64,000 nucleotides of DNA, from assembly GCF_016907055.1 (NCBI RefSeq), contig NZ_JAFBBG010000001.1, positions 1 through 64,000 on the forward strand. The letters run 5' to 3'. Of the stretch, positions 2,618-47,114 are shown one piece after another. Origin of the DNA: Paracholeplasma morum. GTDB taxonomy: Bacteria > Bacillota_I > Bacilli_A > Acholeplasmatales > UBA5453. Position numbers and translations under genes: made by a program. The notes under the pieces were generated by a model that saw nothing but the letters and a program-made list of their open reading frames with translations, made no database searches and had not been told where the DNA came from. How positions within the stretch are numbered: position 1 is the stretch's first letter; each line of letters opens with the position of its first letter.

Positions 2618-2660
2618 ACCTATTTGCCTTTATTAGATAGTATTATTCTAAAACATAAAC

Positions 2661-2692
2661 AAAAAACGGCTTATTAAAGCCGTTTTCTGTTT
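2661..2692. terminator. bidirectional terminator between the lipoprotein gene and nqrF
   Basis: AAAACGGCTT (2663-2672) and AAGCCGTTTT (2677-2686) form a 10-bp stem with a 4-nt loop. A-tracts and T-tracts on both sides allow termination of both convergent transcripts. Confidence 0.85.
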
Positions 2693-2695
2693 TTA

Positions 2696-3763
2696 TTAGA
2701 ATTTATCAAAGTAGATATTTTCTTCTTTCATACCTTTAGATTTTAACACTTTTACACACGCATCAATCATGCCAGGAGACCCGCAAAGATAAGCTTCATG
2801 TCCACTTAAATCATCGGTTAGTTTAGCAACCACTTCTGTGATTAAGCCTCTTTCACCTTTCCACGGACTATCCTTTAGTTCATGAGAGAGTGCTGGCACA
2901 TAAGAGAATTTTGGAAATCTATTTGAAACATCAAGGAAATAATCTGTTAAGTAAAGATCCGCTTCTGTTCGTGCCCCAAAGAAATAGGTAGCCTCACGTT
3001 TGAACCCTTGTTCCATAAGACGGTATATGATTGAACGAATCGGTGCTTTACCAGATCCCCCCGCAATCATGATGATTGGTTTTGTCGATTCTTCTTGTAA
3101 GTAGAAATCTCCGAATGGTCCTGTAAGTTTTACAGTATCTCCAATCCTTAGGGCTTGGTTAACAAAGGTTGAGGCTAATCCATTTGGCACTTGTCTAATG
3201 ATAAACTCAATTTCATAAGGGTTTGAAGAATCAGAGGCAATCGAATAAGCTCTAACCTCATCAAATCCAGGCACTTCAATTTGACCATACTGTCCAGGTT
3301 TAAAATACATAGGTTCGTCAAGTCTAAATCTAACCAGTTTGATGTCATAAGTCATTTTGTCCAATTTGATGACTTTTCCTTTAAAGCTTTTCGCGGTTAG
3401 TAACCCTTTAGGTAAAATGATTTTTAAGTCTGTAGAGACTTTAGTTTGGCAGGATAATCTAATTCCATTTTCCACTTCTTCTTTGGATAATAACCCAATT
3501 TCGGTCGGTTTTGGCGGTTCATGATAATCTATCAATCTAAATTTACAAGTCCCACAACTTCCTTTTCCGCCACAAGCAGACGGGATGTATATTTTATTTT
3601 TGGATAATGAATTGAGCGCTGTGTCATTGCCGAATACAGGGATCAATGTGTCTTCATTAATCGTAATCGTTCTTTCGCCGGATGAGCCTAATAGTTTTTC
3701 AAATACTAAGACAAATGCTGTGATTAAAATAAGGAGTCCCACTAATATGATAAATGTCCACAT
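2696..3763 (-). CDS. nqrF: Na+-NQR subunit F, NADH dehydrogenase (2Fe-2S and FAD)
   Basis: The product has 355 residues, somewhat shorter than the roughly 407 usual for NqrF. One N-terminal membrane helix (3-22) is followed by a plant-type ferredoxin domain with cluster ligands C64, C70, C73 and C105. Next come the FAD motif RAYSIAS (about 172) and the NADH-binding loop GGSGKAP (about 235), and the chain ends with the FDKF-type C-terminus of ferredoxin-NADP reductase folds. NqrF takes electrons from NADH to FAD and then 2Fe-2S on the cytoplasmic side. A ggagg site precedes the ATG. It is the last gene of the nqrBCDEF operon. Retention of every cofactor motif suggests an active NADH-oxidising module. 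Confidence 0.92.
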   Translation of the reverse strand: MWTFIILVGLLILITAFVLVFEKLLGSSGERTITINEDTLIPVFGNDTALNSLSKNKIYIPSACGGKGSCGTCKFRLIDYHEPPKPTEIGLLSKEEVENGIRLSCQTKVSTDLKIILPKGLLTAKSFKGKVIKLDKMTYDIKLVRFRLDEPMYFKPGQYGQIEVPGFDEVRAYSIASDSSNPYEIEFIIRQVPNGLASTFVNQALRIGDTVKLTGPFGDFYLQEESTKPIIMIAGGSGKAPIRSIIYRLMEQGFKREATYFFGARTEADLYLTDYFLDVSNRFPKFSYVPALSHELKDSPWKGERGLITEVVAKLTDDLSGHEAYLCGSPGMIDACVKVLKSKGMKEENIYFDKF

Positions 3764-3774
3764 AGTATTTCCTC

Positions 3775-4356
3775 CTATATCGCGCCAATGCCAGTAAAGG
3801 CAAAGAACGCTAATGCTAAAATACCAAGGATAATGAATGAGATTGCTTTTCCTTTTAATCCACGAGGAATGTTTGATATCTCTTTCATCTTAATTCTTAT
3901 ACCAGCTAATAACACTATCGCAAGCATCCATCCTAAGCCACTTCCAAACGCGAATACTGAGGTTTCTAAAAATGAGTATTCTCTATTCATAAAGAATAAA
4001 GAGATGGCTAATACAACACAGTTAACTGTAATCAAAGGTAAAAAGATACCAAATGAGTTATACACTCTTGGTAAGTATTTCTCGATTACCATTTCCAGTA
4101 ACTGAACGGTTGCTGCAATGGTAATCATAAAGACTAATAAGGCTAAATTGGTAGTATTGGTCTTTAACAATAATTGATAAATCGGCCAGTTAATCATGGC
4201 TGTAAGTGTGACTACTAAAACAACCGCAACCCCCATATTAAGTGCGTTTTTTATCGATGACGAAACCGCGATTAAAGAACACATCCCTAATATAAAGATT
4301 AGTGCGATATTTTGTGATAATATTGATGCAATAAAAATATCCCATAAACGTTCCAT
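3775..4356 (-). CDS. nqrE: Na+-NQR subunit E (NqrE/RnfA membrane subunit)
   Basis: The product has 193 residues and six predicted membrane helices, the usual length for NqrE. The inverted-topology signature LGMC places Cys26 in the first helix, and a second cysteine (ITVNCVV) sits near residue 113. In solved NQR structures these cysteines, with the matching pair in NqrD, hold a 2Fe-2S cluster in the middle of the membrane. Sequence start and loop structure resemble NqrE more than RnfA. It lies 11 bp upstream of nqrF and 8 bp downstream of nqrD. Confidence 0.9.
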   Translation of the reverse strand: MERLWDIFIASILSQNIALIFILGMCSLIAVSSSIKNALNMGVAVVLVVTLTAMINWPIYQLLLKTNTTNLALLVFMITIAATVQLLEMVIEKYLPRVYNSFGIFLPLITVNCVVLAISLFFMNREYSFLETSVFAFGSGLGWMLAIVLLAGIRIKMKEISNIPRGLKGKAISFIILGILALAFFAFTGIGAI

Positions 4357-4364
4357 ATACTCAC

Positions 4365-4985
4365 CTACTCCTCATAATTTTTGGTTAGACTTCTCATGCC
4401 CCAAGCGAGTAATCCGATTACGAAGAATCCGCCTGGTGCCATCGATAAGACAACCCAATTAATCCAACTTGATGGCATGACTTGCATGCCCAATAATGTG
4501 CCATAGCCTAATAGTTCTCTAATGCCTGCAACCACAACTAAAACAATCGTATAACCCATACCGTTTGCGAATCCGTCAATCAGTGTATACTTAACTGGAT
4601 TCTTTACGGCATAAGCCTCAGCTCTTCCCATGACGATACAGTTAGTAATGATTAACCCGACATAAGCACTTAAGTTTTTTTCAATGGTTGGGAAAAAGCC
4701 TTTTAAGAACATTTGAACAAGGATAACGAATGTCGATATAATGACCATATAGGCAACCATTCTCACTTTTGAAGGAATGAAGTTTCTTAGTAAAGATACG
4801 GTAGCCGATGAAGCCATTACTACGAATGTGACACCTAAGCCCATGGCAATTGCGTTAACGACTTGGTTCGTAACCGCAAGTGCACTACAAATCCCTAGTA
4901 CTGAAATCAAAATTGGATTTTGACTAGATACCCCATTTTTTAGAGTTTGAAACCACTTGGTGTATTTCATTCTTAAGTAGTTCAT
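4365..4985 (-). CDS. nqrD: Na+-NQR subunit D (NqrD/RnfE membrane subunit)
   Basis: The product has 206 residues with about six membrane helices. LGICSALAV carries Cys33, and IITNCIVMGRAEA carries the second cluster cysteine around 112. Both are the signature stretches of NqrD, and the ring of four cysteines with NqrE is therefore complete. The ATG overlaps the nqrC stop (ATGA), pointing to translational coupling. A gggagg site inside the end of nqrC supports the start. Confidence 0.92.
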   Translation of the reverse strand: MNYLRMKYTKWFQTLKNGVSSQNPILISVLGICSALAVTNQVVNAIAMGLGVTFVVMASSATVSLLRNFIPSKVRMVAYMVIISTFVILVQMFLKGFFPTIEKNLSAYVGLIITNCIVMGRAEAYAVKNPVKYTLIDGFANGMGYTIVLVVVAGIRELLGYGTLLGMQVMPSSWINWVVLSMAPGGFFVIGLLAWGMRSLTKNYEE

Positions 4986-5566
4986 AGTAACCCTCCCATT
5001 TTGATTTCATAGTTGTCATTTAACAGTAGGATGAACCGTCTTGAAGTCCCAGTAGCCCCTGTAATTTGATCGACTTGAACGGCTTTATCCAATGACAAAT
5101 CCGGATCAGAGAGTGCTAAACTTGGATCAAACTTCTTACCTACAAAATTATTAAGGTATTTTCTGGTAGAGACTAACCCACCAAGACCTGGGGTTTCTTG
5201 TTGATTTAAGACGGTGATTTTAACAATCGTCTTTAAATCGCTTTCTAAAGTAATAACGCCATTGATTTCACCCCATAAACCAGAGCCTGTAAAGTAATAA
5301 CTATATGTCCCCTCTGTTTTATGTTTGTATACAACTTCTCTTGGTGTAGAAGCTTCTACTTCTACTAAAAAATTCTCATCAAAAATACTCGCATGGTTCT
5401 CAACTGCAGAAGAGACTCCGTGATGATTTAACATCGCAGACTTCCATTCATAATTGGAATTGCGCAAGATTCTATTCTTAGTCAGTGCATCTACGCCTGT
5501 GATTAATCCAGCAGTTAAGACGCCTAATACTATCATAAAGATAAACGATTTCATTGAGTCTTTCAT
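4982..5566 (-). CDS. nqrC: Na+-NQR subunit C (FMN-binding, NqrC/RnfG)
   Basis: The product has 194 residues, short against the roughly 257 of typical NqrC. It has an N-terminal membrane helix (8-26) and a soluble domain on the outer side. The flavin-attachment motif TGAT at 169-172 is preceded by VDQI and followed by GTSRR, so Thr172 is the expected site of the phosphoester-linked FMN added by ApbE. ETPGLGG (about 128) is the other FMN-domain signature. It overlaps nqrB and nqrD by 4 bp each. No apbE gene is in the window. Confidence 0.9.
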   Translation of the reverse strand: MKDSMKSFIFMIVLGVLTAGLITGVDALTKNRILRNSNYEWKSAMLNHHGVSSAVENHASIFDENFLVEVEASTPREVVYKHKTEGTYSYYFTGSGLWGEINGVITLESDLKTIVKITVLNQQETPGLGGLVSTRKYLNNFVGKKFDPSLALSDPDLSLDKAVQVDQITGATGTSRRFILLLNDNYEIKMGGLL

Positions 5567-6375
5567 TCAATCACTTCCTTAATGGTTGGTTTGATAATAT
5601 AGGCTGAAACAAACTGATCAATAAGTGGTGATATAGCATTGACTAAAATGACTGCATATATACCCGCAAACTCTCTATTTGAAGATTTTGTATTAATCAA
5701 CCACATTAAAAACCCGAGAGTGATCCCATACATGAGTTTTCCAATATTCGTTTTTGATCCTGTTGAATGCTCACTGCCCATAAATAGACCAATGAAAACC
5801 ATATTCGTTGTTAATAAGATATCCATAGGGTTTGGATTGGCACCATTTGATAAAGAAGAAACAAAGTAGAATCCAAAGAGTGTGACTAGGAAACTGATAA
5901 CTGTATAAACCGATATTGCCTTAAGTGCCATTAACACAACAGCAAGCCCTAATGAAGTATAAATAAATAAATCCCCTACGACATTCCCAGACTTTTGATT
6001 AAGTAAGTAAGTTGGAAAAGACATAATGATGAATATTAACCCAAGTGCTTCAGCATTAAACACGTTCTTGTCTTGACCTCCAAAAAGGGCTTTGGCAAAA
6101 AACAGTCCAAACATTACACCTAACGAAACCATCCAGACATGATCTAGGATGTTGTATGGCACAATCAACGCGATTACCAGAGGGGTAATAAAATACGCCG
6201 TAAAATCGTAAGTCTCTTTTCGAAGATGCGTTGCCAAGAGTTCAACAACCAGTGAAGAAATGATTGCTACTAAAGCAATCCATAATACATTTAAACCATT
6301 CTCATAAATTGAGACGCCTAAAAGGACGGTTAATGCGCCAATAATCATTAACCGGTTTTTTTGATTGATACCCAT
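5563..6375 (-). CDS. nqrB: NqrB/RnfD-family membrane subunit, short and lacking the FMN-attachment motif
   Basis: The product has 270 residues, against about 410 for NqrB and 320-350 for RnfD. Membrane helices fill it. VFNAEALGL (about 102) and the C-terminal block FMGSEHSTGS...GKLMYG followed by VNAISPLIDQ identify the NqrB/RnfD family. Between them, where relatives carry S-G-A-T with the covalently bound FMN, this protein reads LLNQKSGNVVGD with no S/T-G-A-T. I see no other candidate site. It is first in the operon, with a strong aggagg site. The N-terminal extension of NqrB that contacts NqrA is also missing, in keeping with the absent nqrA. Confidence 0.85.
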   Translation of the reverse strand: MGINQKNRLMIIGALTVLLGVSIYENGLNVLWIALVAIISSLVVELLATHLRKETYDFTAYFITPLVIALIVPYNILDHVWMVSLGVMFGLFFAKALFGGQDKNVFNAEALGLIFIIMSFPTYLLNQKSGNVVGDLFIYTSLGLAVVLMALKAISVYTVISFLVTLFGFYFVSSLSNGANPNPMDILLTTNMVFIGLFMGSEHSTGSKTNIGKLMYGITLGFLMWLINTKSSNREFAGIYAVILVNAISPLIDQFVSAYIIKPTIKEVIE

Positions 6376-6400
6376 ATTTAAACCTCCTGTATTTTTTTTA

Positions 6401-26870: not shown

Positions 26871-29800
26871 CTATAAAGTTGGTAATGCTTCTTCATACAC
26901 GATTAAGCACACGTGTGGATATCCATCAAAGCTAGAACCCACTTGTCCTAAAATGAATCCTTGGACTGTGACTTCGGTACCGGTGACTTGTAATTCCTGG
27001 AATTTAGGCGATTGATTCGAAATGATTTCAATTGTATCCGCTCCAGAATTAATACTTAGATAAATAATCCCCTGATCATTAACGATTGTACCAGTGGTTT
27101 CTACATACGCATGTGTATATTCACTCATGTATTCGCCATCAACTATCAAAGCATCAAGATCAATTACGGTAGCTGTTTCATTGATGCCTACATAATTACC
27201 AACTTTCAAATATTCGGTATTATAGATACCATAAACATCTCCGTACATGTTTCCTACACTACCAAATAATGTAACTTCATGGCCAATCATCGTGCTTGCA
27301 TCGACTTCGAATTCAAAATACTGAACAATACCTGTACCATCGTAAACATAAACGATACCATCAAAGTTATAGTCTATGCCAATGATTACACCAGATATTG
27401 CTACACCTTCAACTTCAGATTGGAGCTCAAGCATTTCGATGATTTCACCAATGGATATGATATTCATTGGATTAACTGTAATCATAATAGGAACAACCAC
27501 GCTTAGATTTTCAAAGGAGATAGTCATATCCAATTCATAAGTTGTTTGAACGAGAACATCCGAAATGAATAGATTATAACCATCATAAGTGAATATGTCT
27601 GATACTTCTGAGAAATCTACTGAGAATTCTCCGCCATATTCTGGATGAGTAGACTCTAATTCATAGGATTGTGTTCCTAAGAAGACTTGATTGAATTGAT
27701 TGATTGCATATTCTTGAATGATCGTCAATTTTTGTTCAGCAGTTAACTCTCCAACAACGATGTTATCTTCGCCACTTGGAACTATTAAGATTATTACTGG
27801 TTCAATGTAGTTCTCTACACCTGATATGTAACCCTTGATTGTGACATTTTGTCCATTATACGGGAACAAGTATTCATCTGAGATCAACATGATACTGTAA
27901 GTGCCATCTGTAATCATGTAATTCGCATAATTAAAGGTCACAGTTCCTGTAAGCGTGACGTATGTCATAGGGATGACATCTTCCTTTAGTAAAGGTTGTA
28001 GTTCTTCAATTGTGGTTGAAACTGGATTATTAATGATTTGATTGTCACTAGATACGATATTAATTAAAGGTTTTTCAAAGTCACTTCTGAGTGTGATCCT
28101 TGAGTTATAATTATCTACAGAAGCAATTACTTCAATAAAATCGCCAATTTCTAGTTTGTAATAGGTGTTTAGAAGCACATAACCAGAATCATCCATAATG
28201 ATGTATTCATAGTAATTACTAGCTTCGACTACTAACCCTTCGACATAAACATAGTCCTGTTGTCCATAATGAATCAAATCAGCGATACGGGTTAAGTTAT
28301 ATGGTTCAACATGAATTGTAAAGGTCTTTGTTCTACTGTAATCATTAATCGTAATTACTACTGAAAGTTCAATTGTTCCTGGCTGTTCAAGTTCAACGAC
28401 ATTGTTATCGATATCTAGTAGGTCAGCACCAGATAATAATGTAAACTCTAATGTAGCATCGAAAATAGGGTAACTATCTGGGAAATCGATTTGTTGGTAA
28501 GGTCTAAATGTTTGACTGTAATAGTAAGTGCCTTGCGCGACAATCTCATCGACCATTTCAGCTTCATCAGCATAGCCAAGTAGAACTGAGTAGGTATCAC
28601 CACTAAACAATAAGATGTTTCCATCAAGCTCGTCATAGACCATGAAGCCTCTAACCTTAACTTTAATGTTTTGATACCACGATAAAACGTGAGCTCCAAA
28701 TTGGTCTACTCTAACATGGTTTAAACCATCTGGTGACTCAATGACATAGGAGTAGTTCATTTCATCGAATCTAATCACACCTGAAACCTCTACATATCGA
28801 TAATCAAATGGATCTGTTGTCGTGAATGCATTAAAATCATTAATCGATATTGGGGTTGCTGTAAGTGGATTGTCATGACCATAACTTAATTCTACTCCAT
28901 AATAAGGAACACTTAATATTGGTGTTTCTCCAACAAGTACTAGACTGCCATATAAAGACAACTTAGTACCTTGACCGAACCCTAAGAAACCTTCTAACAT
29001 CATAAATCCGGTTTCATCGGCAATAATTGTGTAATGGGATTGATACGAGTTTCCAACCACAATAACCTCAGTGAAGAACGAATCTCCTTCTTCACCTAAT
29101 AGAATTTCTTCAATGGTTGAAATGGCCTTATTAACAATAAAGACTTCAAATGGATACTCTTGAATGATGTCTTCATAAGTTAAAACAAGTTTAAACTCAA
29201 TAAGGGTTTCATTTGGCGTATCCAGATGGATGACGTGAGTAACGGCATCATAATATAGTGCATTCTCACCAATTGCTTCAATTTCATAAGTTAATCCATC
29301 GAATGTTGCTACGACAGGTTCAAATAAGTTCCCTGGCATAAAGAACGTTGGCAAGTATTGAGAAGCCTCATCAGCAACTTCATCCATTTGAGATTCAATG
29401 GACTTAGGAATTTCAATATCTCTAAAACCGTTCATAATCATAAACATATTGCCTTCAGGATTAACGACACCATGTCCATGAAGGATTACTTCATAAGAAA
29501 CATAGTCATCGATCATGTCTACATAGTCTGCATGATTGATGTTAACAGATAAACGATTTGTTCCATCACTTAGATAATAATCGGATATTAACTCATCATA
29601 TAATAATGTACCTCTGATATTTAGATTGAGATATCCTGTACCATATTGACTTAAATCGGCATTTAAAAATGTCTCAATTGACATAGTGATTTCATCTGGT
29701 ACATTTCCATATCCATCATACGAGACCACTGGATCATAATTTTGGTTGATTACTCTAGGCGTGTGTAGGGCTTCTAAATACCCTTCGACAGTGACGATAT

Positions 29801-32800
29801 CACCAATGCTAAGATAACTATTGGAGTACACTAACACGGTTCCTGTTTCATCCGCTATTAACACCATTCCCTTATCGTTGTAGTCAACGACAACACCAGT
29901 GAACTGTCTTAAATATATCTGTTCATCTTGAAGAATACTATAAATCGTGGTTGGTTCAAGCTTAACAAAAATATTAAGAGCTATAGATATTGTTTCTGAA
30001 TAGATCTTGTAATTAATAGTAACGAATAATTCGATTTCTGTCGTAAATCCAATCTCATCGCTAATCTGTCCTGTTGTTATATCAATGAGTGTTGGATCAA
30101 CAGCTTGATATACAATCTCTGCCCCAGGAATCAATGGATAAGAAGTAATTAACTCGACGATATCACCTTTTTCATATTGATTAAAATGGTATACCGTTTG
30201 AAGATGATTAGAAATCATGTCAATGACATTTTCATCTTTAAGAGTAACTGATATCTCAGCTTGATTGCCTGTAAATAGTAATGATAGTCCTAAATGAAAT
30301 GGGAATATCAATCCACTGATTGTGATTTCATTTCCGACAAACAGAGACAACATTAAGTTAGCTTCTGCCGTTGGATTGATTAGCGGTACGCAACCATCTA
30401 CATTACAAATACCATACCAACCATCTGAGCCCATTGAACCAACAACACCAGTGATATTTACATATTTAAACCACTCACTCATCAGTTCGATTTCTAGGAA
30501 TTCTTGGATGGTGATGATTTCACTGATTTGAGGCATTGGGTTATCAGAAGAAATAACTTTAGGCATTGAATCATCTGATGCAAACAGAACCACAATACCA
30601 TCTTGTGTAAATTTATACCCGCTGATTTCAATGATATCGCCAAAAGTAAGATCTTTCATAATCATAATAGGCACTACGCCATACTCATCCATGATGATTC
30701 CAAGACTAGCTTCCTCTTCATAAAAGTAGACAAAGCCTCTTAAGGTAACGAACGTTTCATCTGGAACATTAGAAAGTGTTGATGGTGTAACTACCAATTC
30801 TGTTTTTAAATTAATATAGAAAGTCTTTTGAACTGTCGTTTCATTAAGCGTCACTGTACAACGGAGTTCGATGACTCTATCAACATCAGTTTCTAGGAAC
30901 TCGCCTGTTTCAACGTTGAAGTAATCCTTATTGTCACCTATGGTTTCAAAGGATAGTTCAACATTAAAGTATGGGTCATATGTCGGAAGCTCAATTATCA
31001 TACCAGCATAGAAGTTCATTTCATTGAGCATATCACCTGATTGGAGAACTAAGTTAATTTTCTCTTCATCAGTCAAAACGATTTCTTCATATGAATCTAT
31101 ATCGATACGAACAACATATTCCTCGTACTCATGATCAATACTTTCAATATAGAATTCTATTTGGACGTATTTTCCAAGGTATGGTTCCATATCTTTATTT
31201 GGATAGGATATTGGTGAGACGACAAGTGCGATATCATCCATCATATCTGTTAAGAAGTAATCATAACCATCTGAATAGATGAATGCTAATGTAGAATACT
31301 TAATTGTATAGATTAACACCTCATATGAATTAAACTCACGGAAGTCTATTAATTCAATTGGCGTTGCTTCTGGAATTAGAATCGTTTCAGAAACCTCTTG
31401 TTCATCTGTAACATCAACGATTGTTGGTATATCAAATATGAAGTCAAATGTTCCTGATACTTCTAATGTGTCTCCAACTTCTACTAACCCATTCACGCTA
31501 GAGACGACAATAGCTATGTCACCATCTGATAAGTAGTAACCTGATTTATCAGGAAATACATATGTGACGATTCCTTTAACCTTCACTGAAGTTAAGCGTG
31601 GCATTAACAACATTACATCGAAGTTAACATAACCATCATCGATGACGAAATGAGCGTAGATAATTAAATCTGCACTTGGCATAACATATGAGTTTACCTT
31701 CGTATCAAATGTAGGTTCTAAATACCAACCTTCAAACTTGAATCCTTCTTTAGTTGGAATGCTAGGTTGATAAGTTTCTAGGTATTCTACAGTTTGTTCG
31801 GATGTAACACCATCTACACTAAGTGTAAGTGTATACGAATTAATTTCAAATTTAGCATAAACTGTGATATCCCTAGCAGGCATTGGATCGTTACCTACGG
31901 CAACTTCATATTGATTATCATAGTACCAACCTTTAAATGTATACCCTTCTTGGGTTGGGGCTGTAAGTTCGATTAATTCACCATACTGAACGTTAATTGG
32001 ATCTAATGTAACCCCAACAAACGTAATCTTATAGGATATCGCTTCAAACTTAGGAACAATAATGATATTTCGAGCAGGCATGCTTGTAAGTATAAATGCC
32101 ACATCCCCTTCAAAATACCCTTCAAATGTATATCCTGCAGGAATTACCGGTTCTGGTAATGTAATCGATGCTCCAAATACGACATCAATAACAACATCCG
32201 TTTCTAAATCAATTGTGATTGAATAAGTGTTTGGGGACCATTTAGCATACACCCTAACAGTATCCATTGGCATATTTGTTAATGCGAATGCCGTTTCAAG
32301 TGTGCTATCAAAAAACCAACCTTCAAACTTGTAACCATCTTTAGTTGGGGTAGTAAGCGTTGGAATGACTTGATTATAAGTTAACTTAAGTGTTGCAATC
32401 GCGTTACCACCATTGGTTTCGAAGATAAAATCGTATTTGATTGGTTCCCATTTCGCATATATAACAACATTTCTAGAAGGCATTGTAGTAAAGCTAAATG
32501 CGGTTTCTAACGTTTGATCGGAATACCAATTTACAAATGTGAATCCATCTTTAGTTGGATTAGCTGGTGCTGCCGTTGCTTGTCCAAATGTATAGGATGC
32601 CATAGCAACTTCTGAGCCACCATTTGTATTATATGTAATTGTATAAGTCTTAGGTGTCCATTTGGCATATAGTGTGACGTTATTAGCAGGCATTGTTTGG
32701 AAAACATAAGCCGTTGTAAGTAATTCATCACTATACCAACCTACAAAGTCGAAACCGTCTTTCGTAGGAGCTGTTGGCGCTGTAATGGTGCTACCATAAG

Positions 32801-33569
32801 CATATGAGACTGATGTAATTTCCGTTCCACCATTCGTTACAAATGATAAACTGAAATTCTTAGGAGTCCATTTGGCATATAGATTTACATTGTTTGCAGG
32901 CATGGATGTAAATACATATGCTGTAGTTAGAAGTTCATCTGCATACCAGCCACCAAAATCATAACCAGCTTTGGTTGGGTCAGTTGGTTCTGTAATCACT
33001 GAAGCGTATGCATGAGTAGTGACATCTATCGCTGTACCACCATTAACGTTATATGTTATTGTGTAGTCATTTACTGTCCATTTAGCGTATAGAACCAAAT
33101 CGTTGTTTGGCATTTTAGAGAATGTATACGCAGTTTCTAACAAAGCATCTATATACCATCCTTGGAATGTATGCCCTGTCTTAGTCGGAGCGGTTGGCGC
33201 CACTATGTTTTCATCGGCCTCATATGTAAGTGTAGCAATCTCACTACCTCCATTTGTATTAAAGGTGATTGTATGACTTGATGCAAGCGGTAACCATTTA
33301 GCATATAAAGTAAGGCCACCAGTATTACTTAACAAGTCTGCGATTGAGAAAGGTTTGCTCAATAATTCATCTGTAAACCAACCACCAAATTCAAACCCTG
33401 TTCTAGTTGGTTCAGGCAATGTGATGTTTGAGTCGGTTGTTTTAATGGTTTGTTCGGCAATATCGTTGCCTCCATTAGAAACGAACGTGACTTTAATGGT
33501 TTTATCTCCTGTACAAGCAGACAAAAAACCTAGTAATAGAACGACAATTACTAAAAATCTCTTTCGCAT
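26871..33569 (-). CDS. giant modular surface lipoprotein: nine InlB B-repeats and tandem OB/Ig-like domains
   Basis: The product has 2232 residues. A lipoprotein signal ends in LSAC (Cys19). Residues about 25-641 hold nine InlB/Listeria-Bacteroides repeats of 64-72 residues, each with a G(W/Y) turn and ending LYAKW or a variant. The rest repeats a cycle of two OB-fold-like units (VxGxV..., GDxVxVxG) and one beta-sandwich unit of about 90 residues. I count about twelve OB-like and five Ig-like units, with a period near 280 residues. There is no LPXTG or C-terminal anchor. It must be attached by lipid outside the cell, where it may bind host, polymer or DNA ligands (inference). No antisense gene is likely despite long shadow frames. 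Confidence 0.85.
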   Translation of the reverse strand: MRKRFLVIVVLLLGFLSACTGDKTIKVTFVSNGGNDIAEQTIKTTDSNITLPEPTRTGFEFGGWFTDELLSKPFSIADLLSNTGGLTLYAKWLPLASSHTITFNTNGGSEIATLTYEADENIVAPTAPTKTGHTFQGWYIDALLETAYTFSKMPNNDLVLYAKWTVNDYTITYNVNGGTAIDVTTHAYASVITEPTDPTKAGYDFGGWYADELLTTAYVFTSMPANNVNLYAKWTPKNFSLSFVTNGGTEITSVSYAYGSTITAPTAPTKDGFDFVGWYSDELLTTAYVFQTMPANNVTLYAKWTPKTYTITYNTNGGSEVAMASYTFGQATAAPANPTKDGFTFVNWYSDQTLETAFSFTTMPSRNVVIYAKWEPIKYDFIFETNGGNAIATLKLTYNQVIPTLTTPTKDGYKFEGWFFDSTLETAFALTNMPMDTVRVYAKWSPNTYSITIDLETDVVIDVVFGASITLPEPVIPAGYTFEGYFEGDVAFILTSMPARNIIIVPKFEAISYKITFVGVTLDPINVQYGELIELTAPTQEGYTFKGWYYDNQYEVAVGNDPMPARDITVYAKFEINSYTLTLSVDGVTSEQTVEYLETYQPSIPTKEGFKFEGWYLEPTFDTKVNSYVMPSADLIIYAHFVIDDGYVNFDVMLLMPRLTSVKVKGIVTYVFPDKSGYYLSDGDIAIVVSSVNGLVEVGDTLEVSGTFDFIFDIPTIVDVTDEQEVSETILIPEATPIELIDFREFNSYEVLIYTIKYSTLAFIYSDGYDYFLTDMMDDIALVVSPISYPNKDMEPYLGKYVQIEFYIESIDHEYEEYVVRIDIDSYEEIVLTDEEKINLVLQSGDMLNEMNFYAGMIIELPTYDPYFNVELSFETIGDNKDYFNVETGEFLETDVDRVIELRCTVTLNETTVQKTFYINLKTELVVTPSTLSNVPDETFVTLRGFVYFYEEEASLGIIMDEYGVVPIMIMKDLTFGDIIEISGYKFTQDGIVVLFASDDSMPKVISSDNPMPQISEIITIQEFLEIELMSEWFKYVNITGVVGSMGSDGWYGICNVDGCVPLINPTAEANLMLSLFVGNEITISGLIFPFHLGLSLLFTGNQAEISVTLKDENVIDMISNHLQTVYHFNQYEKGDIVELITSYPLIPGAEIVYQAVDPTLIDITTGQISDEIGFTTEIELFVTINYKIYSETISIALNIFVKLEPTTIYSILQDEQIYLRQFTGVVVDYNDKGMVLIADETGTVLVYSNSYLSIGDIVTVEGYLEALHTPRVINQNYDPVVSYDGYGNVPDEITMSIETFLNADLSQYGTGYLNLNIRGTLLYDELISDYYLSDGTNRLSVNINHADYVDMIDDYVSYEVILHGHGVVNPEGNMFMIMNGFRDIEIPKSIESQMDEVADEASQYLPTFFMPGNLFEPVVATFDGLTYEIEAIGENALYYDAVTHVIHLDTPNETLIEFKLVLTYEDIIQEYPFEVFIVNKAISTIEEILLGEEGDSFFTEVIVVGNSYQSHYTIIADETGFMMLEGFLGFGQGTKLSLYGSLVLVGETPILSVPYYGVELSYGHDNPLTATPISINDFNAFTTTDPFDYRYVEVSGVIRFDEMNYSYVIESPDGLNHVRVDQFGAHVLSWYQNIKVKVRGFMVYDELDGNILLFSGDTYSVLLGYADEAEMVDEIVAQGTYYYSQTFRPYQQIDFPDSYPIFDATLEFTLLSGADLLDIDNNVVELEQPGTIELSVVITINDYSRTKTFTIHVEPYNLTRIADLIHYGQQDYVYVEGLVVEASNYYEYIIMDDSGYVLLNTYYKLEIGDFIEVIASVDNYNSRITLRSDFEKPLINIVSSDNQIINNPVSTTIEELQPLLKEDVIPMTYVTLTGTVTFNYANYMITDGTYSIMLISDEYLFPYNGQNVTIKGYISGVENYIEPVIILIVPSGEDNIVVGELTAEQKLTIIQEYAINQFNQVFLGTQSYELESTHPEYGGEFSVDFSEVSDIFTYDGYNLFISDVLVQTTYELDMTISFENLSVVVPIMITVNPMNIISIGEIIEMLELQSEVEGVAISGVIIGIDYNFDGIVYVYDGTGIVQYFEFEVDASTMIGHEVTLFGSVGNMYGDVYGIYNTEYLKVGNYVGINETATVIDLDALIVDGEYMSEYTHAYVETTGTIVNDQGIIYLSINSGADTIEIISNQSPKFQELQVTGTEVTVQGFILGQVGSSFDGYPHVCLIVYEEALPTL

Positions 33570-43459: not shown

Positions 43460-43987
43460 CTATGCCTCGAAGCCGAGGTCTATTGCTTTTTTATTAATTT
43501 CAATTAAGTGTTCTTTTTTTGAACCAAAGTAATACTTGAGTGCCTCAATCACATCTTCCTTTTTAAAGAGATTAGTATCTTTGAGGTATTTACCCAATAG
43601 AATCATATTGATGGTTTTAGGTTCATTTAGCTCTTTTGCCAGATCGTTGGCTTTAATCCCAGCTACCGTGATTGAGTTGGGGTTTTGAAGATGGATTAAT
43701 GACTCATTATAAAGCATGTAACCCTTGTTTTTAAGGGTGTTTTTGAACTTTAAGTAACTTGGTTCGTTTAGTACGATTAAGTCGTCAGAATCCTTAAATA
43801 CTGGTGAGTAGATGGGTTCATCTGAGATTGTAACCATACAATTCGCAGTCCCGCCTCTCGTTTCTGGTCCATAGGTTGGAACCCAAATTGCGTTTAACCC
43901 TTTTAGGGTTGCACTGTAAGCTAATACTTGACCTAATAACATAACGCCTTGCCCGCCGAATCCAGCGATTCGAATGGTCTTAGTCAT
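43460..43987 (-). CDS. 2-oxoacid:ferredoxin oxidoreductase, gamma subunit (VorC/KorC-like)
   Basis: The product has 175 residues from the ATG at 43987, which overlaps the beta-subunit stop. IRIAGFGGQGVMLLGQVLAY (about 5-25) and GPETRGGTANCMVTISDEPI (about 45-65) are the POR gamma-domain signatures. It closes the four-subunit enzyme that converts 2-oxoacid plus CoA to acyl-CoA, CO2 and reduced ferredoxin. It is the last gene of the operon and is followed by a terminator. Confidence 0.88.
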   Translation of the reverse strand: MTKTIRIAGFGGQGVMLLGQVLAYSATLKGLNAIWVPTYGPETRGGTANCMVTISDEPIYSPVFKDSDDLIVLNEPSYLKFKNTLKNKGYMLYNESLIHLQNPNSITVAGIKANDLAKELNEPKTINMILLGKYLKDTNLFKKEDVIEALKYYFGSKKEHLIEINKKAIDLGFEA

Positions 43988-44723
43988 TTTTGCCCACATC
44001 CTTATACACGCCAAGAGGGAATTCTGGAACCATATTATCAGTAACCCATTTCATGGCTTCAGCTGCCCCCATACCCCAGTTAACTGGACAGGTTGATAAC
44101 ACCTCTATCATTGTGAATCCGCGGCCTTCTAATTGATATTGAAAAGCTTTTTTGATTGATTTTTTAACTTTATTAACACTTTGTGCCCCAGTCAACGAAA
44201 CCCTTTCAACATAGGCAACGCCTTCTAAATGTTGAAGCATCTCAGATACCTTAATAGGATATCCTTGAGTTTTCGGGTCTCTTCCAGTTTGTGAAGTCGT
44301 TGTTTTTTGACCTACCAAAGTGGTTGGAGCCATTTGTCCACCTGTCATGCCATAGGTTGCGTTATTTGCGAAGATTACAGTAATGTTTTCACCACGGTTA
44401 GCCGCATGAATGGTTTCTGCGATTCCAATAGATGCTAAATCACCATCTCCTTGATAGGTAAACACCACATTATCTGGCAAGACGCGTTTAATACCTGTTG
44501 CGGTTGCACAAGCTCTGCCATGTGGGGCTTGTTGCATATCACAGTTGAAGTATTCATAAGAATATACGGAGCATCCTACAGAAGCAATCCCAACAGTTTT
44601 TTCTAAAATACCTAGTTCAACCATGACTTCTGCGACAATTTTGTGCAAAATACCGTGAGTACAGCCAGGACAATAGTGAGTTTTTTTATCTGTTAGACCA
44701 GTTGTCTTTTCGTATCTAATCAT
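43980..44723 (-). CDS. 2-oxoacid:ferredoxin oxidoreductase, beta (TPP-binding) subunit (VorA/KorB-like)
   Basis: The product has 247 residues from ATG 44723 (ATGA overlap with alpha). CPGCTHGILHKIVAE (about 22) and GRACATATGIKR, QGDGDLASIG (TPP-Mg2+ motif GDGD, about 92-105), NATYGMTGGQMAPTT and CPVNWG are the TPP-subunit signatures. It binds thiamine diphosphate and couples decarboxylation to Fe-S clusters. Cysteine pairs near the start (CPGC) and further down hold the cluster. Confidence 0.9.
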   Translation of the reverse strand: MIRYEKTTGLTDKKTHYCPGCTHGILHKIVAEVMVELGILEKTVGIASVGCSVYSYEYFNCDMQQAPHGRACATATGIKRVLPDNVVFTYQGDGDLASIGIAETIHAANRGENITVIFANNATYGMTGGQMAPTTLVGQKTTTSQTGRDPKTQGYPIKVSEMLQHLEGVAYVERVSLTGAQSVNKVKKSIKKAFQYQLEGRGFTMIEVLSTCPVNWGMGAAEAMKWVTDNMVPEFPLGVYKDVGKND

Positions 44724-45787
44724 TCTCTCACCCACTTTTTAAAGTTTATGATGGCATCACGAATTTCTGTTGGATCGATGACAACACCACCGGTTCTACC
44801 ATAAAATGCCACTTCGAATCTGCCCTTGTTCGCAATTTCAACGTCATCCACCATTTGGCCTAAGGACATTTCGGTTACAAGTATGCCTTTACAAGTATTT
44901 GGAATAAGATCAAATGCTTTTTTAGGAAATGGCCATACCGTAATAGGTCTAATCATGCCTACATTAATGCCAGCATCTTTAAGCATTTCAATGGCACTTC
45001 TAGCGATACGAGCCGTTGTCCCATAGGCAACGATAACGTAATCTGGATTGTCCATATTAATGAGTTCGTAACGAGCCTCATGTTGTTTCATTAGATCATA
45101 TTTCGCTTTAAGTTTTAAGTTATGTTCTTCTAAGGCTTGAGGGTCTAAGAATAAACTAGAGATAACATTTCTACCTGGATGGTTTTGTGTTCCAGTGGTT
45201 GCCCAAGGTTTAGATACCATGTCTCTTGTTGGCACTGGTTTATCCAAATCTACGGATTCCATCATTTGACCAATTAACCCATCGACCAATATCATTACAG
45301 GGTTTCGATATTGATCTGCAATATCAAACCCTTCTTTAATACTGTCTACGGTTTCTTGAATCGATTCCGGCGCAATTACCAATAAGTGATAATCCCCGTT
45401 TCCACCTCCGCGTGTTGCCTGATAGTAATCGGCTTGAGATGGCTGAATACCACCTAGTCCTGGTCCACCTCTCATAACAGAAACAATTAAACACGGCAAT
45501 TCTGCCCCAGCAATATAAGAAATCGCTTCTTGTTTTAAAGCAATCCCTACACTAGAACTCGAAGTCATTACACGTTTTCCTGCACCAGCTGCGCCATAAA
45601 CCATGTTGATGGCTGCTACTTCAGATTCAGCTTGTAAAAACACTTTCCCAGCTTCTGGTAAGTATTTCGATAAGTACTCAGGCACTTCATTTTGTGGTGT
45701 TATTGGGTATCCGAAAAACGCATCAACACCTGCTTTAACAGCAGCTAAAGCGATGGCTTCATTTCCTTTTATTAGTTTCTTAGACAT
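44720..45787 (-). CDS. vorB: 2-oxoacid:ferredoxin oxidoreductase, alpha subunit (VorB, 3-methyl-2-oxobutanoate type)
   Basis: The product has 355 residues. GNEAIALAAVKAGVDAFFGYPITPQNEVPEYL, SVGIALKQEAISY, MRGGPGLGGIQPSQADYYQ and GGNGDYHLLVIAPES are the signatures of VorB-type alpha subunits. VorB handles 2-oxo-isovalerate and the other branched-chain 2-oxoacids; related KorA acts on 2-oxoglutarate. The neighbouring leucine dehydrogenase favours the branched-chain reading. It overlaps the ferredoxin-like gene by 8 bp and the beta gene by 4 bp. Confidence 0.88.
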   Translation of the reverse strand: MSKKLIKGNEAIALAAVKAGVDAFFGYPITPQNEVPEYLSKYLPEAGKVFLQAESEVAAINMVYGAAGAGKRVMTSSSSVGIALKQEAISYIAGAELPCLIVSVMRGGPGLGGIQPSQADYYQATRGGGNGDYHLLVIAPESIQETVDSIKEGFDIADQYRNPVMILVDGLIGQMMESVDLDKPVPTRDMVSKPWATTGTQNHPGRNVISSLFLDPQALEEHNLKLKAKYDLMKQHEARYELINMDNPDYVIVAYGTTARIARSAIEMLKDAGINVGMIRPITVWPFPKKAFDLIPNTCKGILVTEMSLGQMVDDVEIANKGRFEVAFYGRTGGVVIDPTEIRDAIINFKKWVRE

Positions 45788-46004
45788 CTCTCGTTTCCAC
45801 CTTAATGACAGAATCTGGGCAAATCATTGCGCAAAATGCACAACCAATACATTTATCAATATCAGTGACATCTACTAGTTGATAACCCGATTGGTTTATT
45901 CTTGTTGTAGACATTTCTAGTATTTTGACTGGACAGTTATTTACACATAACTCACAGCCCTTACAAAACTCATTGTTAAAATCCAAAGAGTAATACTTTT
46001 TCAA
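45780..46004 (-). CDS. 2-oxoacid:ferredoxin oxidoreductase, delta subunit (2[4Fe-4S] ferredoxin)
   Basis: The product has 74 residues and two [4Fe-4S] motifs, FCKGCELCVNNCP and KCIGCAFCAMICP, i.e. two CxxCxxCxxxCP sets. Such small proteins are the delta subunit (VorD/KorD) passing electrons out to ferredoxin. It starts 11 bp after leucine dehydrogenase and overlaps vorB by 8 bp. AGGAGGAACC precedes it. Confidence 0.9.
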   Translation of the reverse strand: MKKYYSLDFNNEFCKGCELCVNNCPVKILEMSTTRINQSGYQLVDVTDIDKCIGCAFCAMICPDSVIKVETRDV

Positions 46005-46015
46005 AGGGGTTCCTC

Positions 46016-47095
46016 CTATCTTGGAATATAGTTATCGTGTAAATTCTTAATAGTCTGAATACGTTTTTTAGCAAATACTTTTGCTGCTAATTGTGTGTGA
46101 ATGTTCTCTTGTTCAGAGATTTGATAGATTTCCAATAAACGATCATATATCAACTTAATGTCAGCCAATACTTTTTCTTTTGGCTGATTCATTAACTCAT
46201 AATACACGTTAATGAGTCCACCTGCATTTATGACAAAGTCTGGGGCATATAAAATACCTCTTTCTTTGATCATATTTCCATGTGTATCTTCATCTAATAA
46301 GACATTGTTCGCTGTACCAGCGATGATTTTAGCTTTAATTTGAGGAATGGTATCTGAATTTAAGACGCCACCTAAAGCACACGGTGACAATACATCAACA
46401 TCTAGACCAAATAATTTGTCTGGATCAACAAATTCTACTTCTGGATGTTCTTGTTTCATACGTTCTATGTGTTTTGGATTTATTTCTGAAAAATAGATTT
46501 TTTTAGCATTTTCTTCTAATAAGTACTCGGTTAAATAATAGCCAGTTTGTCCTGCTCCTTGTATCGCAAATGTATACTTAGAAATATCTTCACAACCGAA
46601 TTTCTGTTTTAATGCTGACTTAATGCCATAAAAAGCACCTAGCGCAGTAATTGGAGATGGGTTGCCTGATTTGCCTTCAAGACCTACAACATAATCAGTT
46701 TCCATGTGGATATAGTTCATATCTTTAGTGTTTGTGTTTACGTCTTCTGCCGTAATGTATCTACCATTTAATGATTGAACATATCTTCCAAGTGCTCTAA
46801 AATAGGCTTCACTTTTGACTTTGGTTGCATCACCGATTAAAACCGTTTTGCCACCACCAAGATTCAACCCTGCAGCTGCGGCTTTATAAGTCATACCTCT
46901 TGCTAGTCTCAAACAGTCAAGAACAGCATCATCTTCTGACTCATAATTCCATAATCTAGTACCACCAAGGGCTGGCCCTAATGTTGTATTATGAATCACT
47001 GTTACCCCTTTTAAACCTGTCGTACGATCGTAAAAATAAACCACTTGTTCAAACTCATGCTTTGCCATGTAATCAAATACTTTAAAATCACTCAT
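46016..47095 (-). CDS. leucine (branched-chain amino acid) dehydrogenase
   Basis: The product has 359 residues from MSDFKVF; AAGGGAG precedes the ATG at 47095. The N-terminal catalytic domain carries TTLGPALGGTR and AAAAGLNLGGGKTVL (Lys catalysis), and GRYITAEDVNT. The Rossmann domain has AIQGAGQTGYYL. Near the C-terminus are CALGGVLN and DFVINAGGLINV. It deaminates leucine, isoleucine and valine to 2-oxoacids with NAD+. It heads the operon with the VOR subunits, giving a complete route from amino acid to acyl-CoA, useful for branched fatty acid precursors or ATP (inference). Confidence 0.92.
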   Translation of the reverse strand: MSDFKVFDYMAKHEFEQVVYFYDRTTGLKGVTVIHNTTLGPALGGTRLWNYESEDDAVLDCLRLARGMTYKAAAAGLNLGGGKTVLIGDATKVKSEAYFRALGRYVQSLNGRYITAEDVNTNTKDMNYIHMETDYVVGLEGKSGNPSPITALGAFYGIKSALKQKFGCEDISKYTFAIQGAGQTGYYLTEYLLEENAKKIYFSEINPKHIERMKQEHPEVEFVDPDKLFGLDVDVLSPCALGGVLNSDTIPQIKAKIIAGTANNVLLDEDTHGNMIKERGILYAPDFVINAGGLINVYYELMNQPKEKVLADIKLIYDRLLEIYQISEQENIHTQLAAKVFAKKRIQTIKNLHDNYIPR

Positions 47096-47114
47096 ATTAT
47101 TCTCCCTTCGCAAA

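Follow-up and report, generated by a model that had tools for sequence, protein, structure and literature searches.

The first 64,000 nucleotides of contig NZ_JAFBBG010000001.1 of Paracholeplasma morum, here called the window, carry an operon for a membrane electron-transfer complex related to the Na+-translocating NADH:quinone oxidoreductase (Na+-NQR; NADH, reduced nicotinamide adenine dinucleotide). The genome is 1.56 Mb in size and 99% complete, it shares a genus group with genomes G003 and G005, and it probably belongs to a wall-less cell of the Acholeplasmataceae type. At positions 2696 to 6375 on the minus strand, five genes lie in the order nqrB-C-D-E-F, with neighbors that overlap or are separated by short gaps, and all five products fall in NQR/Rnf families by both Pfam and NCBIfam, although most NCBIfam equivalog cut-offs are not reached. 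A first-pass annotation, made from the sequence alone, had given the same order and coordinates and had listed sites for NADH, flavin adenine dinucleotide (FAD), Fe-S clusters, and the flavin mononucleotide (FMN) of NqrC, plus all four intramembrane cysteines; all of these were found in the sequences, the cysteines in NqrD and NqrE. An artefact of frame or genetic code is excluded, as translation table 11 yields five clean open reading frames, spaced by short gaps or overlaps and preceded by a ribosome-binding site. No known RNA family, such as the FMN riboswitch, was detected in the window.

The NqrB of this operon has lost its FMN loop. Alignment with orthologues and with the RnfD encoded by the same genome indicates that the linker between transmembrane helices 5 and 6, which carries the FMN threonine, is shortened by about 40 residues. 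The motif [ST]GA[ST] occurs nowhere in the 270-residue protein, which excludes relocation of the FMN site within NqrB. The annotation had described a 270-residue NqrB with no S/T-G-A-T and had proposed this alignment; none is recovered, and the loop itself is missing. An AlphaFold2 (AF2) model has a predicted local distance difference test score (pLDDT) of 79.5, falling below 50 at residues 128 to 132, where a coil stands at the linker remnant, and its best matches in the PDB are RnfD and NqrB chains, with template modeling scores (TM-scores) of 0.73 to 0.82 by query length. NqrB also diverges fastest, with 57% identity to its nearest orthologue, compared to 77 to 87% for NqrD, NqrE, and NqrF. 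A literature search for a Vibrio cholerae NqrB-T236Y mutant gave no match.

Table 1. Features of the nqrBCDEF operon in the window, followed by gene clusters in other genomes (positions given per locus)
Feature	Position	Strand	Description	Basis
nqrB-like	5563..6375	-	270 aa, ten predicted transmembrane (TM) helices, without an NqrA-type N-terminal extension	PF03116 in two stretches
TM5-TM6 linker remnant, NqrB residues 126-134	5974..6000	-	About 40 residues including the FMN-threonine motif gone	Alignments, AF2 coil
nqrC-like	4982..5566	-	194 aa, N-terminal TM helix and FMN_bind domain	PF04205
NqrC TGAT, residues 169-172, predicted FMN attachment site	5051..5062	-	Within DQITGAT	
nqrD	4365..4985	-	206 aa, Cys33 and Cys116 for predicted intramembrane [2Fe-2S]	PF02508
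nqrE	3775..4356	-	193 aa, Cys26 and Cys113 for predicted intramembrane [2Fe-2S]	PF02508
nqrF	2696..3763	-	355 aa, TM anchor, [2Fe-2S] C64/C70/C73/C105, FAD and NADH domains	PF00111, PF00970, PF00175
AGGAGG ribosome-binding site of nqrB	6383..6388	-		Sequence
Terminator-like hairpin 3' of nqrF	2657..2692	-		Consensus match only; region gives 3 against 2.1 expected by chance
cydAB-fusion-rnfE'A'-nqrBCDEF	L188:1086-10765; L189:1502-11608; L178 with L171		RnfD-FMN_bind fusion of 496-947 aa	
cydAB-rnfDGEAB	L220:3241-8664; L222:6500-11951; L223:6285-11839			
About 150-aa post-nqrF protein	L079:4116-4571; L085:8013-8468; L126:8093-8542; L127:8106-8567; 27 more loci			

NqrA is missing from the genome as well as from the operon. 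No match to NQRA_2nd (PF24836) was found in the window genome or in any of 150 Acholeplasmatales relatives, mostly draft genomes, in which absence is weaker evidence than presence. An nqrA elsewhere, which the annotation had named as a finding that would speak against it, was thus looked for and rejected. Its claim that RnfB and RnfC are missing holds for the operon and fails for the genome: contig C2 carries a complete rnfC-D-G-G-E-A-B cluster, followed by apbE. ApbE is required for FMN attachment to NqrC, and, with one apbE present, the idea of a genome without ApbE is wrong. The genome's own RnfD retains an SSAT motif. Because the genome has a full Rnf, the Nqr operon is a second, distinct machine and not, as the annotation's "reduced machine" would have it, the only one in the cell, and the suggested drive by ferredoxin is not borne out, as an input subunit of the NqrF type means drive by NADH. 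Most nqrBCDEF genomes of the order likewise carry RnfC. G109 (85% complete) also has nqrBCDEF, and its sole RnfC_N-type match is a lipoyl-domain protein beside dehydrogenase-complex genes and not RnfC. As a separate observation on the intact Rnf cluster, its RnfB has 103 residues, with an Fe-S domain and no dicluster ferredoxin domain (L004:4320-4631; L050:7874-8185), and a frameshift is unlikely, since the same form occurs in the window genome and in G005. At 43460 to 47113 of the window, a three-subunit 2-oxoacid:ferredoxin oxidoreductase adjoins a Glu/Leu/Phe/Val dehydrogenase and probably supplies Rnf with reduced ferredoxin.

Quinone synthesis is unlikely because no UbiA-type prenyltransferase was found in the window genome; the 14 control genomes were all positive. 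This search covered the window genome and the 150 relatives of the order, of which a single one scored above the cut-off. Judged from gene content, the missing UbiA argues against quinone reduction by the window operon. An ordinary NADH:quinone reductase might nonetheless work on scavenged quinone, with FMN bound non-covalently in NqrB and NqrA dispensable, and it is in keeping with this that solved structures show NqrA without a redox cofactor (PMC12174285) and that the quinone site has been located in NqrB (PMC10643135). We consider such an enzyme very unlikely here, given that the NqrB FMN loop is deleted and that the genome encodes neither UbiA nor cytochrome bd, so that the cell should have neither a quinone of its own nor this quinol oxidase.

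Among wall-less relatives, the loss recurs on one side of the complex. The NqrB query matches 100 of the 150 relatives, many of the weaker matches being ordinary RnfD, and the five-gene order that the annotation had wished to see in relatives, without nqrA, is present at all 20 loci first inspected. In 38 wall-less NqrB proteins, the FMN loop is deleted in 7, the threonine is gone in 6, threonine only is left in 13, and motifs of the forms xxA[ST] and [ST]xA[ST] occur in 6 each, where the xxA[ST] call for L039 is a pattern match off the aligned motif position and is better placed with threonine only. Parsimony on a concatenated NqrD-E-F tree gives three loop-deletion changes and five changes of threonine state; the deletion in the window NqrB is common to G009 and G012. 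The riboflavin asparagines (V. cholerae numbering) are also eroded, N200 being kept in 19/38 and N203 in 29/38, compared to 14/14 in a comparison set. In contrast to this return path, the outward path is conserved: the 13 NqrF residues tested and the four cysteines of NqrD/E do not vary among the 32 wall-less operons, and the NqrC motif [TV]G[AGV]T is present in 31 (the exception is L066). Because similarity to NqrB and NqrF was part of how the loci were collected, the conservation of NqrF is inflated, while that of NqrC, NqrD, and NqrE is not. The comparison set (n = 14) comprises 12 operons from Clostridia, Spirochaetota, Cloacimonadota, Omnitrophota, Planctomycetota, and Tissierellales, the window genome's own RnfD, and the RnfC-linked L172; it keeps both NqrB flavin sites, with an FMN motif that ends in ST instead of AT in two members.

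RnfC-linked nqr clusters keep both NqrB flavin sites where examined, whereas wall-less operons without RnfC do not. RnfC stands directly 5' of nqrBCDEF at L075, L081, L082, L089, L095, and L172 (L172 shows nqrBCDE, at the end of its contig); the arrangement is found in other phyla, G095 has it in a second cluster, and such hybrids likely use NqrF as input and RnfC as output. In the group of Acholeplasma laidlawii and A. oculi, NqrC is enlarged to 656 to 821 residues with repeated FMN_bind domains, which is suggestive only, because RnfG of intact Rnf also has extra FMN domains. In G032, a genome of this group, the predicted masses are 72 kDa for NqrC, 40 kDa for NqrF, and 21.5 kDa for NqrE. The NADH oxidase isolated from A. 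laidlawii membranes in about 1981 was reportedly a flavoprotein with iron-sulfur centers, and its subunits measured about 65, 40, and 19 kDa.

The rapid divergence of NqrB and the loss of one cofactor site might be taken to mark a functionless, decaying relic of an NQR operon. That explanation is scarcely credible in view of the five open frames, the invariant residues of the outward path, and a loop deletion held in common with G009 and G012. Moreover, pairs of loop-deleted NqrB in relatives have a ratio of nonsynonymous to synonymous substitution rates (dN/dS) of about 0.09 to 0.10 (YN00), indicating purifying selection; these closer pairs were used because the synonymous rate between the window and L036 is saturated or undefined.

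The riboflavin site of the window NqrB is less altered than its FMN loop. In V. cholerae NqrB, riboflavin is held by T162, N200, N203, and D346 (PMC9325719, PMC10643135). At the corresponding hydrogen-bonding positions, the window protein retains T64, N104, and N107, with E202 in place of D346, while neighbors of the site have changed, the equivalents of G198, P204, and A205 being D, A, and E. As for Na+ translocation, equivalents of the gate phenylalanines, F194 and F198, are retained. Because the riboflavin residues are mostly kept, a short circuit is conceivable, in which the NqrC FMN would dock on the linker-less NqrB and reduce riboflavin directly, and electrons would return to a cytosolic or membrane acceptor. 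The retained NqrB fold and gate residues fit this scheme, and such direct sampling has been proposed for a two-subunit NQR/RNF-like complex in which the NqrB-type threonine is lost too (Huang et al., PMC10979944). On the other hand, the neighbors of the site are substituted, the riboflavin residues vary in other wall-less NqrB proteins, and both an output module and quinone synthesis are absent; a short circuit thus seems unlikely to us.

We consider it probable that the operon encodes an "open-circuit" NQR, in which electrons from NADH reach the outer-face FMN of NqrC and pass to an outside acceptor. In Na+-NQR, electrons go from NqrF through NqrD/E across the membrane to the FMN of NqrC and then back via the FMN and riboflavin of NqrB (PMC12174285). 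In the window complex, NqrF would take electrons from NADH, first onto FAD and next onto its [2Fe-2S] cluster. NqrD/E would pass them across the membrane through an intramembrane [2Fe-2S], and they would arrive at the outer surface on the FMN bound covalently to NqrC. The usual return, from the FMN and riboflavin of NqrB/RnfD to quinone or RnfC, would be cut, leaving NqrB as a membrane scaffold and possibly an ion channel. Because the return path appears cut, with the NqrB loop deleted, no NqrA, and no quinone prenyltransferase, the NqrC FMN most likely reduces something outside, for which free flavin, exogenous quinone or humic substances, Fe(III), and O2 are candidates. The direction of electron flow, the acceptor, and any ion pumping are what we infer from these sequences. 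The comparison of operons, with the outward path conserved and the return path decayed, now supports the annotation's proposal that electrons halt at NqrC's outer-face FMN.

A possible partner for such cores is seen in relatives. Cytochrome bd (PF01654) is found in 3 of the 150 genomes of the order, and in all three it forms one apparent operon, cydA-cydB-[RnfD-FMN_bind fusion]-rnfE'-rnfA'-nqrB-C-D-E-F, whose rnfE' and rnfA' are without the cysteines of the cluster; UbiA gave no match in these three genomes. A search for further clusters with an RnfD fusion yielded mainly ordinary RnfD, its best matches pointing to cydAB-rnf operons. Izemoplasma-like loci L220, L222, and L223 have the order cydA-cydB-rnfD-rnfG-rnfE-rnfA-rnfB, without rnfC; at L221 the order is traceable by open reading frame calls to rnfG only, and at L224 no rnfB was detected where expected. 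Where these Izemoplasma-like loci could be read, the four cysteines of RnfE/A and the RnfG motif are retained, the FMN motif of RnfD is gone, and its riboflavin asparagines are mostly replaced. The CydA proteins of the cyd operons have 380 to 402 residues, with a Q-loop reduced to about 10 to 15 residues by phmmer alignment with E. coli CydA, and they retain the residues aligned to the heme ligands; the assignments of the heme ligands and of the quinol-binding Q-loop are ones that we take from general knowledge of cytochrome bd. In these relatives, electrons would pass directly from flavoprotein to cytochrome bd without quinone, and the shared operons suggest respiration without quinones. Tentatively, we extend this to a broader proposal: Rnf/Nqr cores without NqrA or RnfC may run an open circuit in which the outward limb brings electrons to the outer face of the membrane and the return cofactors decay, two wall-less lineages may have wired them to a Q-loop-less cytochrome bd for quinone-free aerobic respiration, and the window operon may be the same machine with an external acceptor.

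Several observations weigh against the open circuit. The retention of T64, N104, and N107, with E202 for D346, means that a residual return step is possible, and NqrB proteins with threonine only may still be flavinylated. Loss of NqrA does not by itself explain the decay, since both NqrB flavin sites persist in the NqrA-less operons of other phyla. The window genome encodes no outside acceptor: NqrC and the two RnfG are its only FMN_bind proteins, without a separate secreted one. Since cytochrome bd is likewise absent from that genome, the cyd operons show a possible partner of the core and not that of the window operon. Finally, Peloplasma, a relative in culture that has an Rnf complex, was not stimulated by ferrihydrite or anthraquinone-2,6-disulfonate (AQDS) (PMC11122141).

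Known systems resemble the window operon in part. Compared to the NqrABCDEF of V. cholerae and others, B to F are homologous and in the same order, and the predicted sites for NADH, FAD, [2Fe-2S], intramembrane [2Fe-2S], and NqrC FMN are kept; NqrA, the covalent FMN site of NqrB, and a UbiA-type prenyltransferase are lacking. The absence of NqrA is itself neither unique nor new: NqrBCDEF without NqrA is known from Pseudothermotoga/Thermotoga, Clostridium ultunense, Izimaplasma ZiA1, and A. palmae (PMC4148951, PMC5924567, PMC6256511), with the same five genes in the same order and without an identified acceptor. However, NqrB retains its FMN motif and riboflavin residues in the examples examined outside the wall-less group (C. 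ultunense, L114), and the window NqrB has lost its FMN loop. Loss of the NqrB-type FMN threonine with an NqrC-type FMN kept is known from the two-subunit NQR/RNF-like complex, in which electrons are proposed to move one way only, from NAD(P)H to the exterior (PMC8238504, PMC10979944). In that complex, NqrB forms a fusion with an NAD-binding domain and NqrD/E are missing, whereas the window operon has NqrD/E, a separate NqrF, and an NqrB that carries PF03116 only. The Rnf complex (RnfABCDGE), of which the window genome has its separate copy, shares the core D, G, E, and A, but the window operon has an NADH-oxidizing NqrF instead of a ferredoxin-oxidizing RnfB and has no RnfC. Listeria-type flavin-based extracellular electron transfer works similarly, from NADH to an extracytosolic protein flavinylated by ApbE, yet its gene cluster has a membrane NADH dehydrogenase of another family, K03885 (PMC8238504), while the window complex would cross the membrane via NqrD/E; a separate FMN lipoprotein was not found in the window genome.

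Two further observations concern neighboring genes. A protein of about 150 residues is encoded directly 3' of nqrF at 31 NqrA-less nqr loci (Clostridia, Spirochaetes, Cloacimonadota, Planctomycetes, and others). It has no Pfam match and no NCBIfam match above the cut-off, its AF2 model, though confident (pLDDT 95.5), matches nothing in the PDB at E <0.1, and none was seen next to the operons of the wall-less clade. Elsewhere in the window, positions 26871 to 33569 encode a predicted lipoprotein of 2232 residues with at least eight InlB-type (Flg_new) repeats.

What is new here is that decay in wall-less, NqrA-less operons is one-sided and strikes the return path. The loss of NqrB flavin sites with NqrC to NqrF kept, its recurrence, and the linked cyd operons with a Q-loop-less CydA were not found in the literature searched, the coverage of which excluded Izimaplasma cytochrome bd and cytochrome bd evolution. 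Work on NqrA-less NQR has left the acceptor unknown, and the one-sided decay points to an acceptor reached from the outer face, while the cytochrome bd operons of relatives point to quinone-free respiration. In these operons the two limbs of the NQR/Rnf pump have come apart naturally, which permits a test of whether ion transport requires only the outward limb or the NqrB flavins.

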